A DNA stretch of 23,549 nt from a virus, in IMG/VR virus record IMGVR_UViG_3300044712_000992, positions 1-23,549 of that record; one strand, written 5' to 3'. The notes beneath the pieces are model-generated. The model was not told where the DNA came from and did not search any database. It saw only the letters and a program-made list of their open reading frames with translations. Both the position numbers and the translations under genes were made by a program. Positions 2,820 through 15,402 of this stretch are shown one piece after another; position 1 is the stretch's first letter; the number at the start of each line of letters is the position of its first letter.

Positions 2820-3301
2820 GTCAGACCTCCGGTTCTGTTACCTCATTTGCCTACTCAACAGGGCGTGTACCTACCACGCCGCCACCTTTGCCCGCCGACG
2901 TGAGCGGGACTTGTTGATCTTATATTTCCGTCTGCCAGGCTGATCAGGCCACCTTTCCTACTCACCACAAACGAGTGGTTTTCCGATCAAAAGGTTTTCT
3001 TCGCGCCCTTCGCGCCTTCGCGTGAAAGAAGCCCCGAGTTACACCATTCGGTTCGCCGTCTCAAGCTGTTGCATCTTCAGCGGCGATGCTCTCGATGCGC
3101 ACACCGAGGATCTTCGGGAATGCTTATTCAGCGCAGTCCCAACGCGCCGAGGAGCGAGATCTCCGTGCTCCTCTTTACTTTCTGCCATCTCAAACCGGAT
3201 GGCCATTTATTTGCAAAGCTGACGGCGGTACTTGGTCCCGCGGCCAGCGATTTGCTAATCAAAAACTTGTTGCCTGTTCGGTTGTAAAAGAGCAATTCCA
3301 G
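2820..3301. other. Non-coding stretch with one host-like repeat; no convincing gene
   Basis: ORFs here lack ribosome-binding sites and overlap each other or the tRNA. It holds one copy of the GC-rich repeat (2989-3030). On the minus strand near 3059-3124 a short frame reads FPKILGVRIESIAAEDATA then stop, which may be the trace of a decayed phage gene. Confidence 0.4.
2989..3030. repeat. Copy 1 of dispersed 'GGTTTTCTTCGCG...CTTCGCG' repeat
   Basis: It reads AAAAGGTTTTCTTCGCG followed by CCCTTCGCGCCTTCGCGTGA. It matches the cluster at 6386-6905 base for base over most of its length. It is non-coding and probably a host-type dispersed repeat. Confidence 0.7.
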
Positions 3302-3373
3302 TAGCGGGAGACGGACTCGGACCGTCGGCTTCTTGGGTATGAACCAAGCGAGGTGCCACTCCTCAATCCCGCA
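3302..3373 (-). tRNA. tRNA with CAT anticodon (Met-type)
   Basis: On the minus strand a 72-base cloverleaf folds. The acceptor pairs GCGGGA with TCCCGC, with the outermost pair (T-T) unpaired. The D-arm is GAGG/CCTC with loop AGTGGCA. The anticodon arm is CTTGG/CCAAG with loop TTCATAC, giving CAT at 34-36. The T-arm is GACGG/CCGTC with loop TCCGAGT (C at position 55 instead of T). Discriminator A is at 3302, with no encoded CCA. The unpaired first position is initiator-like, but the anticodon stem lacks three consecutive G-C pairs, so elongator Met or a lysidine-type Ile tRNA remains possible. It lies in the phage early region. Confidence 0.8.
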
Positions 3374-4485: not shown

Positions 4486-5013
4486 ATGAGGAAATATGTC
4501 ATTCTGTTCGTACTTACAATTCTGATGGTTTCCTGCACGCCAAAGGCTGAACCAATCCAAAAGATCTCTATTCCAGATCTGGACCCTGCCTTATTGCTGC
4601 CAGATCAAGGTGCCATGCCAGAAGGTGTGATCTTATCCACCACCAGTACAACCTTTGAAAAAAGAGACGTGCTCAAGCCCTACAAATTTATCTGGAAACA
4701 GATTGAAGACGCAACCACAGAAAGGGGAGGAATCAACATTTACACCTACGAATCCCCCCTGGATATGAAACACTCCTACCAGACTGAGCAGGAATCCAAC
4801 AAAAGCATTTCAGATAAAACCTACCCCGATCTCACAGCCGGCGAGGTTTCCCAGGTCACCAGCTACATCATTGGCTCTGACCAGGTCAACGATCTTGTCT
4901 TCTATCGTTGCAACGTCCTGGTCACAGTGCGCTACCTCGCTTCTGACACCACCGATCTGATGGCGATCGGTAGCGCCATTGATTCTGCCATTCAGAAATG
5001 GGTGTGTGAATAA
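4486..5013 (+). CDS. Predicted lipoprotein, putative lysogenic-conversion gene (175 aa)
   Basis: A strong ribosome-binding site (GGGAGG) precedes the ATG. Residues 1-16 form a signal peptide with a lipobox LMVSC, the lipidated Cys being C17. The mature part starts TPKAEPIQ. It contains mixed alpha/beta sequence with no recognised catalytic motif, and a second Cys pair near the C-terminus (C153 region and the penultimate Cys). It lies 27 bases after the repressor on the same strand, so it is probably expressed in the lysogen and displayed on the cell surface. Superinfection exclusion or surface change is plausible but not shown by sequence. Confidence 0.65.
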   Translation: MRKYVILFVLTILMVSCTPKAEPIQKISIPDLDPALLLPDQGAMPEGVILSTTSTTFEKRDVLKPYKFIWKQIEDATTERGGINIYTYESPLDMKHSYQTEQESNKSISDKTYPDLTAGEVSQVTSYIIGSDQVNDLVFYRCNVLVTVRYLASDTTDLMAIGSAIDSAIQKWVCE

Positions 5014-5014
5014 C

Positions 5015-5995
5015 ATGAGCACCCCACCCCCTCTTCCACGTTTCACCTGGCACACCCTCGAAGAATGGGCAGCCAGATCTCTCATCGCGCTGATGGGCCT
5101 CGGCCTGATCATTGGCGTCGCTCAAACAGCCACCGCTGGCCGGCAAGAAGCGCTCCCGCCGCCGACTTCCACCGTCGCCCCCACCTTCACGCTTTTGCCA
5201 ACTTCTACCTTTACCAGCACCGTTATTCTCACCCCCACCCAAACGCTGACCCCAACCCTCACCTTCACCCCAACGGTCACATTTACCCCAACGCTGACCT
5301 TCACGCCCACCATCACCCTCACACCAACCGTCACACTTCCACCCCTGGCCGCTGCTGATTGTGTCTCTCCGACTGCAGAACGTCAGACCGGCGTGGTCAC
5401 CAAGATCACCGATGGCGATACCATCCACGTCAACATTGATGGGGTTGATTACCCGGTGCGCTACATCGGCATCGATACCCCCGAGGTTGGAGCCAAAGAC
5501 GCCGCCCCCGCCGCTCAGTACAATTCCTACCTGGTGCTGGGCAAGACAGTTACCCTCATCAAGGATGTGTCAGAGACCGATCGCTACGACCGCCTGCTTC
5601 GCTACGTCTTTGTAGGCAATGTCTTCGTCAACTATGAGCTCGTGGCCCGTGGCTACGCAACTTCTGGCACCTGGGAGCCAGATACCGCCTGTGATTCCAC
5701 CTTCGCCGCTGCCATGGCTGCGGCCAGATCAAAACAACTTGGCATGTGGGCTCCCACCTCACTTCCTGCCACATCAATCCCCGCCACAGCCCTGCCAGTC
5801 GCAGGCATCCCCACAAAAACCCCGTCCCCGTCCCTCGGCTCCAACTGTGATGCAGCCTATCCAGATTTCTGCATTCCCTCACCACCACCAGACTTGGACT
5901 GCAAAGACGTTGCCCCACACAAACGCTTCAAAGTTCTCTCACCAGATCCGCACCACTTCGATAGTGACGGTGATGGCGTTGGTTGTGAAAGCTAA
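5015..5995 (+). CDS. Exported SNase-family nuclease with excalibur-like calcium-binding tail (326 aa)
   Basis: I start at the ATG just after the lipoprotein stop; no clear ribosome-binding site, so coupling is likely. Residues about 21-41 form a signal or anchor helix. Residues about 50-110 are a Thr/Pro spacer of repeated TPT units, typical of Anaerolineae surface proteins. Residues about 124-245 are a staphylococcal-nuclease domain. Visible active-site equivalents are D133 and D135 (TDGDT), R149, D154 and E157 (RYIGIDTPE), and R193 (DRYDR). Residues about 278-326 carry paired Cys and end DSDGDGVGCE, an excalibur calcium-binding signature. It should be a Ca-dependent nuclease acting outside the cytoplasm. 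As prophage cargo it could degrade environmental or incoming phage DNA (inference). Confidence 0.85.
   Translation: MSTPPPLPRFTWHTLEEWAARSLIALMGLGLIIGVAQTATAGRQEALPPPTSTVAPTFTLLPTSTFTSTVILTPTQTLTPTLTFTPTVTFTPTLTFTPTITLTPTVTLPPLAAADCVSPTAERQTGVVTKITDGDTIHVNIDGVDYPVRYIGIDTPEVGAKDAAPAAQYNSYLVLGKTVTLIKDVSETDRYDRLLRYVFVGNVFVNYELVARGYATSGTWEPDTACDSTFAAAMAAARSKQLGMWAPTSLPATSIPATALPVAGIPTKTPSPSLGSNCDAAYPDFCIPSPPPDLDCKDVAPHKRFKVLSPDPHHFDSDGDGVGCES
5226..5341 (+). repeat. Tandem degenerate repeat encoding the Thr/Pro spacer
   Basis: Units of about 18 bases (ACCTTCACCCCAACGGTC and variants) encode TFTPTV/TLTPT hexads. Slippage would change spacer length without breaking the frame. Confidence 0.8.
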
Positions 5996-13475: not shown

Positions 13476-13515
13476 CTCTGCACCTGTAAAAGAACCAATA
13501 AAAATCGTTCTGTTC

Positions 13516-13740
13516 TGTCATCGCGAGGAGCGTAGCGACGAAGCGATCTCCTTCCGTCCTACATACCCCACCGCCTACTTACCCCACCGCACTTGCCTGT
13601 CATTGCGAGGAGCGCAGCGACGAAGCAATCCCCGCGATGCCTACATACCCCACCGCCCACCAGGCACCCCACCGCCCACCAGGCACCCCACCGCCTGTCA
13701 TTGCGAGGAGGGCAAAGCCCGACGCGGCAATCCCCGCACC
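13516..13740. repeat. Three copies of the 'GTCATTGCGAGGAGCG' repeat with tandem spacer, inside the tail operon
   Basis: Copies at 13516-13551, 13598-13641 and 13696-13740 share TGTCATTGCGAGGAGCG then CAGCGACGAAGCAATCCC, with small changes; copy 3 has a variant centre, GGCAAAGCCCGACGCGG. Between copies 2 and 3 a 19-base unit (ACCGCCCACCAGGCACCCC) repeats twice, and TACATACCCCACCGCC occurs twice. This chromosomal repeat type is common in Chloroflexota and some other bacteria. Its presence between the chaperone and tape measure genes is unusual for a phage. Confidence 0.8.
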
Positions 13741-13754
13741 GCATCCATACCCTG

Positions 13755-14386
13755 TTACTTGTACCCCTTCAAAAACTTCGCCTTCAAAGCATCCACCTTA
13801 GCCTGCCCCTCTTGCACATCAGGCAAACCACTTGCCAACGCCTCAAACACATCCAGCCATTCCCAGGGCAACCCATCCACCTCCCACGGCATCACCACCG
13901 CCCCACCCAAAAACGTATTGATCGCCCTGGCTCGTAAAACCGCCGCAAAATACGGGTCATGAGTCTGCCCTGTCTGTGCTATCTCCAACAGGGCAGACTC
14001 ATTCAGTTTTTTCGCGTATCACGATGCTCAACAATGGCATTGATGATCCTATCCACCACCCATGTCGGGAAGTTCGGGTCAGTAGGCATGGCTTCATCAA
14101 ACATTTTCTTCACTGCATCCACAGGGAGGGGTTTTCCACCCTCATGCAAAATAGCAGCATAAAAAGCGATCACTGCTTCATTGACCTCTTCAAACTGTTT
14201 TTCGTATTCGGCTTCCTTGCCTTTAGCGTCCTTGATCAACTCCTGCAGGATCCGCACATCATTTAGCCACTTGATGTACATCTTTGACGGTGGATTGACC
14301 CAGATATCCAGACTCGCAGCACCAAATTCTTGTGCATAGTCTGAGAAATTCAACTTCTTGAAGATCTTCGGAATGATGAATTCCAT
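13755..14386 (-). CDS. Tail assembly chaperone, -1 frameshift fusion (GT-type, about 210 aa)
   Basis: This is the product expected if ribosomes slip back one base at A AAA AAC (14006-14012). 127 residues of the upstream ORF are followed by 83 residues read from 14006 to 13755 (LNESALLEIAQTGQTHDPYF...). The second part has no ATG or ribosome-binding site of its own. It continues FAAVLRARAINTFLGGAVVMPWEVDGLPWEWLD and ends KFLKGYK. In lambda and most siphophages the G and GT proteins load the tape measure and tail tube subunits through exactly this arrangement, located between tail tube and tape measure genes as here. The fusion is strongly predicted but not proven. Confidence 0.85.
13959..14012 (-). 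promoter_or_regulatory. Programmed -1 frameshift signal: slippery heptamer plus 15-bp stem
   Basis: On the minus strand CGA AAA AAC TGA ends the first ORF. The heptamer A AAA AAC (14006-14012) fits X XXY YYZ exactly. After the TGA, ATGAGTCTGCCCTGT (13988-14002) pairs perfectly with ACAGGGCAGACTCAT (13959-13973) around a 14-base loop. A slippery site, a 3-base spacer and a long stable stem are the classic stimulatory layout. Confidence 0.9.
14003..14386 (-). CDS. Tail assembly chaperone, unshifted product (G-type, 127 aa)
   Basis: AGGAGG lies seven bases before the ATG. The protein is mixed with long helices: EFIIPKIFKKLNFSDYAQEFG, KMYIKWLNDVRILQELIKDA, then KQFEEVNEAVIAFYAAIL and VVDRIINAIVEHRDTRKN. 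Acidic and helical character and the position between tail tube and tape measure fit the G-type chaperone. It is the abundant, unshifted form; a minority would be made as the longer fusion. It stops at the TGA inside the frameshift signal. Confidence 0.8.
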   Translation of the reverse strand: MEFIIPKIFKKLNFSDYAQEFGAASLDIWVNPPSKMYIKWLNDVRILQELIKDAKGKEAEYEKQFEEVNEAVIAFYAAILHEGGKPLPVDAVKKMFDEAMPTDPNFPTWVVDRIINAIVEHRDTRKN

Positions 14387-14397
14387 CTCACATCCTC

Positions 14398-15402
14398 CTA
14401 CAAACTGGCCACATTCGTGGTCACAGCGGCCTCAAGCAACTTGCCGCTCGTGGCATCATACTGGCCATGCAGCACCAGAGTATCCAGGTTGCTGCTCTTC
14501 TGACGGTCATTGGAAGCCATGGCAACCACATCTTCCACATACCCGGCCAGATCAAACACCGCAGAGTGAGCCTCACCCGTGCCAATGACCGGCCCAAGCA
14601 GCTCAACCCGTGCAAACCGCATCTCATTGATCGCAGCACGCAGTGCCTCAGTGGTAACACCACGCTTCAGGGTCAATGTCAACATAGCAGAAAGCGGCCC
14701 CTGTTCGTGGCTTTTATAGGTCTCAGTAGATCCACCGTTGAAATCAGGGTAAGCCCCCGGCAGAATGTCCAGGTCAAATGAGCGTAACAAACCCTCAAGA
14801 GCTGTATCTCCAAGATCAGCCCACGCTGAATCAAGATACACATTCATCAGCTTCGCGCTCATATAGGTCATAGACAAAGGTACAAGTGCAGCCGTAAAGG
14901 CCCCGTTTACGTTCTGCTGAGCAAAATAATCCGCTTCCAACTTCACGGCGCTCTCACCGCCATCCTGGTTTACCTGCCCGGAGATGTGAATTCGCTTGAA
15001 CATGGCATAAGCGTGTTTCACTGCCTGCACATTATCGCCGCGCTCCAAAGTGAAGGAATCCAACGCATTATCTGCCGTCAAAGAGGGCGCAAACGTCCAC
15101 AAATAATCATCCTGATCAGGCGTTTGCTCCACAGGGGTAATGTTGCCCTTGAGTCCACCTGAGAGAAGGTAGGGCAGCAACTGGAACGCGCCCTGGTCCC
15201 AACTCAGCGTATCCTGTACCAGCACACCCTGCTGCAGCCGGCCGGTGACCTGCGCATTCACCCCAATGTCATACGGCAGCTCCGTTACCTTGCGGTCAAC
15301 AGGCAGCGGCCCCTGCACAATGGGGATCATCTTGGTGGCGGCCACAGCCGTCCCGTGAACCGTTTCCTTGCCGATCTGTACTTTACCTAAGATAGGTGCC
15401 AT
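14398..15402 (-). CDS. Major tail tube protein (334 aa)
   Basis: AGGAGG lies seven bases upstream of the ATG. The opening APILGKVQIGKETVHGTAVAATK and the strand-rich body are typical of phage tail tube proteins, which start with a loop before a beta-sandwich core. The body includes VQDTLSWDQGAFQLLPYLLSG, DYLWTFAPSLTADNALDSFTLERGD without a long helix, and LTLTLKRGVTTEALRAAINEM. Its place between the head-tail completion genes and the chaperones is diagnostic. At 334 residues it is larger than the lambda gpV type, so an extra surface domain is likely, probably in residues 100-230. It polymerises around the tape measure. Confidence 0.75.
   Translation of the reverse strand: MAPILGKVQIGKETVHGTAVAATKMIPIVQGPLPVDRKVTELPYDIGVNAQVTGRLQQGVLVQDTLSWDQGAFQLLPYLLSGGLKGNITPVEQTPDQDDYLWTFAPSLTADNALDSFTLERGDNVQAVKHAYAMFKRIHISGQVNQDGGESAVKLEADYFAQQNVNGAFTAALVPLSMTYMSAKLMNVYLDSAWADLGDTALEGLLRSFDLDILPGAYPDFNGGSTETYKSHEQGPLSAMLTLTLKRGVTTEALRAAINEMRFARVELLGPVIGTGEAHSAVFDLAGYVEDVVAMASNDRQKSSNLDTLVLHGQYDATSGKLLEAAVTTNVASL

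Follow-up and report, generated by a model that had tools for sequence, protein, structure and literature searches.

A −1 programmed ribosomal frameshift of the lambda G/GT type is predicted from the sequence to yield two tail assembly chaperones from one start in the virus of record IMGVR_UViG_3300044712_000992, a reading to which we assign a probability of about 0.93. The window, that is, the whole 23.5-kb stretch of viral DNA that was analysed, is coding mostly on the minus strand and carries genes for terminase, portal, capsid, tail proteins and the tape measure protein; the phage host is probably a member of the Chloroflexota. A slippery heptamer, its phase, an open −1 frame, a downstream stem and their conservation occur here together as a set. 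Mechanistically the site is unremarkable, a well-known device in a protein family that has no Pfam or PHROG model, and its hairpin is longer than usual. It adds to the tail chaperones an unmodelled family, found in phages and in Chloroflexota genomes, in which a predicted −1 frameshift is uniformly conserved.

The first gene of the pair, G (14003–14386, minus strand), is an ORF for a putative tail assembly chaperone of 127 residues in the 0 frame, with homologues in 36 further loci. Its 3′ end reads CGA AAA AAC TGA, with the TGA stop at 14005–14003, and the wider minus-strand context is ...GAT ACG CGA AAA AAC TGA ATGAGTCTGCCCTGT TGGAGATAGCACAG ACAGGGCAGACTCAT GAC CCG... The initial annotation had set A AAA AAC in the right frame at the end of this ORF, and the heptamer is indeed found at 14012–14006 (minus strand) as an X XXY YYZ motif in phase with G and before the 0-frame stop. 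The T extension (13755–14006, minus strand) runs in the −1 frame from 14006 to a stop at 13757–13755, which gives 83 codons plus stop and a predicted GT fusion of 210 residues. No upstream Shine–Dalgarno (SD) stimulator is present in the window; one was found in 5 of 36 loci.

Searching directly with either G or T by itself returned almost nothing, and relatives were reached via the terminase, the portal and the gene upstream of G, the last of which (14398–15402, minus strand) served as bait. The relatives comprise about 35 viral contigs and two Chloroflexota genome contigs or bins (L085, and L093, which belongs to the Pelolinea bin of L084); when the genomes of the whole class were searched, the sole hit was the Chloroflexi prophage already known (1 of 396). 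In all 36 loci, the window included, in which a homologous upstream gene is followed by a readable G, this G ends in an in-frame A AAA AAN and a homologous T follows in the −1 frame; one more locus, found through G, also has heptamer and T. The heptamer count is made up of 35 loci including the window, L131 (by hand) and L089. The last base of the heptamer varies among A, C, G and T, and the −1 frame runs for 83–95 codons; in L115 the contig ends after 18 codons of it, and L116 stops before G. These comparisons indicate that the slip site occurs throughout this phage group.

Downstream of the heptamer lies a stem of 15 bp, located both by folding and as an inverted repeat on the minus strand. 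Its 5′ arm occupies 13988–14002 (conserved core 13991–13998), its 14-nt loop 13974–13987 and its 3′ arm 13959–13973 (conserved core 13963–13970). The arms are 100% complementary, and RNAfold adds a 16th pair. Over 77 nt the predicted fold reaches –36 kcal/mol, with z –6.0 relative to dinucleotide-shuffled sequence, and of 780 segments scanned around the G–T region none is more stable than the 50-nt one directly 3′ of the heptamer. No other perfect inverted repeat in the window is as long as the stem; in Markov-shuffled windows perfect repeats of at least 15 bp occur on average about 0.015 times. For pairing of the loop with downstream sequence into a pseudoknot, the best candidate is a weak 7-nt U/G-rich match, which is not convincing. 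Structure about 5–9 nt downstream is common, though not obligatory, at −1 sites, and here the 15-bp stem has its core at 7 nt. The stem had been described as beginning three bases after the heptamer. This holds for the full stem, but the spacer to the conserved core (13999–14005, minus strand) is 7 nt in the sequence, as in relatives, and 7 nt is probably the effective distance. With the heptamer in the P and A sites the lowest pairs would lie inside the mRNA channel, so that at the base of the window stem three to four pairs (AUGA/UCAU, mostly absent in relatives) would probably be melted at the ribosome entrance.

Several lines of comparison point to selection on the stem. To tell RNA structure from protein constraint, 500 synonymous versions of the first 17 T codons were generated for each locus; the window stem was 20 kcal/mol more stable than the mean recoding (z –5.2), and p ≤ 0.05 was obtained at 14 of 34 loci, which are related and thus do not represent 14 independent events; control windows deeper in T gave median z values of –0.6 and +0.3. 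The clade of the window, nine members that are well supported on the upstream-gene tree, shares the 8-bp core GUCYGCCC/GGGCRGAC, which begins exactly 7 nt downstream of the heptamer and contains a mismatch in some members. Within this core, the pair formed by alignment columns 18 and 47 is U-A or C-G in all nine rows and has switched in a coordinated way at least three times on the upstream-gene tree, which ties changes at a synonymous Ser site to Gln/Arg or Gln/Trp replacements. The fraction of paired cells drops from 85% to 42–47% when the 3′ arm is slid by 1–3 nt, and codons in the arms are identical more often than elsewhere in T (61% versus 41%, permutation p 0.015). The RNAalifold covariation term is small, since, unpaired cells aside, most core pairs do not vary, and the observed number of pairs with double changes was reached in 307 of 500 column shuffles. 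The case for covariation therefore rests on the counts of cells, on the controls with a slid arm and on the independent stems of other members. Such stems, of unrelated sequence, stand at the same place in L131 (CGCACCGCGCUC/GAGCGCGGUGCG, starting 5 nt after the heptamer), L117 (GCGCCCUGCUCG/CGAGCAGGGCGC), L115 and L124 (CCCCUGCCC/GGGCAGGGG). Stems in other relatives start 5–7 nt after the heptamer, and several have 11–12 or more perfect pairs. The check for compensatory changes in related phages that had been proposed initially supports both heptamer and stem. On this comparative evidence the stem is under selection.

A stem above background is missing in about half of the family, mostly in one large clade with A9–A10 runs, and is therefore not essential to the family. 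The suggestion that such a stem is unusual for tail-chaperone sites needs adjustment, as about half of the relatives have one, but that of the window is the longest seen. The repeat might instead have some other role, in transcription attenuation, protein binding or mRNA stability, and the heptamer alone would then drive the shift. This would suit the half of the relatives that are predicted to shift without a stem, and also the size of the window stem, which exceeds what a stimulator needs and has its lowest pairs only 3 nt from the heptamer. We nevertheless consider it distinctly unlikely, because in many members the conserved core keeps a constant 5–7 nt from the heptamer and co-varies. Nor is it an intrinsic terminator, as no T run lies 3′ of the stem. 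A stem that stimulates frameshifting remains our preferred reading, and related sites with and without hairpins provide a natural series for gauging the hairpin's contribution to the G:GT ratio.

Polymerase slippage in the run of As, which would alter the number of As in the transcript and let T be read without any ribosomal shift, is the next alternative. It occurs on An with n > 7 (PMC3711429). Relatives L097–L104 and others have 9–10 consecutive As at the shift site, long enough for polymerase, but the run in the window consists of only six As followed by C, as in several relatives that are also A6C. The phase of the heptamer is moreover kept, and a stem 5–7 nt downstream has the geometry of a ribosomal stimulator. 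These points make transcriptional slippage very improbable as the explanation of the window site. As a separate observation, L097–L114 and others end G in A8–A10 runs without a stem, for which polymerase slippage or a double slip site are candidates. An apparent trade-off between A-run length and stem strength (Spearman 0.53 for z and 0.70 for MFE) disappeared once phylogenetically independent contrasts were applied (r –0.05, p 0.78); given this null result and only three to four independent changes, we do not claim it. It is a rather doubtful idea that, within this one chaperone family, frameshift sites alternate between a short A6–7 heptamer with a long co-evolving hairpin and a long A8–10 run without one. 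If it were true, the long-run design would perhaps use polymerase slippage, and the stem would be a means of tuning the G:GT ratio that can be rebuilt.

The −1 frame was said to lead straight into a second ORF lacking its own ATG. The data agree: 83 codons are open, no ATG lies near the start of the frame, and T has no conserved start codon among the relatives. Separate production of T would have to begin at TTG 13988 or another start, with re-initiation at the TGA/ATG overlap. The TTG is in frame, six codons into T, and has a weak 3-base match of the GAG type, and ATG 14002–14000 directly abuts the G stop. That ATG, however, is in the G frame, which closes within eight codons, and the TTG lies within the stem-loop and lacks a proper SD. 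T protein alignments begin at the first residue after the heptamer, upstream of the TTG, so residues that a TTG start would leave out are conserved. Independent initiation is hardly credible on these grounds. Homology from the heptamer onward, together with unconserved starts, argues strongly, on comparative grounds, for access to T from G through a −1 shift. In all members T is liable to be mis-annotated by gene callers. A sequencing or assembly error that split one gene, for which the homopolymer of As might speak, has a negligible probability and is already refuted by the relatives, since all independent contigs have the same −1 arrangement.

For the frameshift itself, we infer that ribosomes shift at this site and that the stem stimulates the shift. 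Most ribosomes would terminate at the TGA at 14003–14005 and release G (127 residues). A minority, carrying tRNA-Lys at AAA and tRNA-Asn at AAC, would move back by one base on A AAA AAC while the hairpin at the entry of the mRNA channel resists unwinding, and the slipped ribosomes would continue in the −1 frame to produce GT (210 residues). The usual distance from a slippery sequence to the start of its hairpin is 5–8 nt (PMC4066793). In E. coli, A AAA AAC is a weaker shift site than A AAA AAG (PMC5009743), which makes a helper hairpin plausible, though the host ribosome here is not that of E. coli. Measured shift levels of tail chaperones are low, with a product ratio of about 30:1 in lambda (PMC5009743) and 6–7% shifting in two other chaperone genes (PMC3711429). 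The initial annotation gave the junction peptide as TRKKLNESAL. This sequence would arise from slippage in the P site only and is expected as the minor form; if both tRNAs slip in tandem after AAC has been decoded, the main form should be TRKNLNESAL (TRKN–LNESAL).

By analogy with lambda, G would coat the tape measure protein, its expected partner, and the T part of GT would recruit tail-tube subunits, which is why the G:GT ratio would matter. Neither G nor T matched a family in Pfam, PHROG or the PDB, and no close solved relative of G was found in the PDB. AlphaFold models built on 34-row alignments were confident, with pLDDT values of 96.6 for G and 93.2 for T. Of the three top BFVD fold matches of G, two carry the name tail assembly chaperone, with E-values that are weak (0.06–0.17), and T had no convincing match in BFVD. 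With no family matches and weak fold matches, the chaperone name rests on position and on the frameshift.

The lambda G/GT pair is alike in having a short ORF directly before the tape measure gene, a heptamer near its 3′ end and a −1 extension, and in the rare long product to be expected. The heptamer of lambda is G GGA AAG; the window differs in its A AAA AAC and long downstream stem, and the two share no detectable sequence family. Studies of the lambda frameshift were reportedly made by Levin in 1993 and Xu in 2004. The lambda G/GT tail assembly chaperone frameshift is reviewed in PMC5009743. The A_AAA_AAN plus hairpin cassettes of the IS3 family and dnaX resemble the window site in their A-rich heptamer and a stable hairpin 5–8 nt further on (PMC4066793), but the genes are different and dnaX has an upstream SD stimulator that the window lacks. 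The tail chaperone of HCTV-2, a haloarchaeal virus, has A_AAA_AAC in a G–T type gene pair (PMC5009743); its host is archaeal, and the likeness rests on the heptamer and the type of gene pair.

The gene order agrees with the lambda-like, long-tailed phages, in which G–T stands directly before the tape measure gene (PMC5009743). In the window G and T sit between the upstream gene at the tail-tube position (15402–14398, minus strand), which lacks a family match and is taken for a tail-tube gene by position, and the tape measure gene (13475–11562, minus strand; PHROG 27166 tape measure, E 3.6e-15). The tube and tape-measure flanks of lambda-like G/GT are thus both in place, the tape measure gene adjoining the pair and the tube gene being assigned from position. 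T and the tape measure gene are separated by 279 bp in the window, compared with 0–115 bp between T and the following long ORF in relatives.

This interval holds, at 13513–13752, three copies of a repeat of the type TGTCATTGCGAGGAGCG(C/T)AGCGACGAAGCAATCC, spaced 82 and about 100 nt apart, plus a 19-nt tandem. Among all fetched loci the repeat occurs in this virus only, and it resembles a dispersed repeat of host type, inserted into the tail operon. Elsewhere in the window there is a tRNA-Met (CAT) gene at 3301–3373 on the minus strand. Outside the structural operon, a plus-strand ORF at 4979–5995 contains a T/P-rich repeat region, and its sequence is reminiscent of a secreted thermonuclease-like domain.
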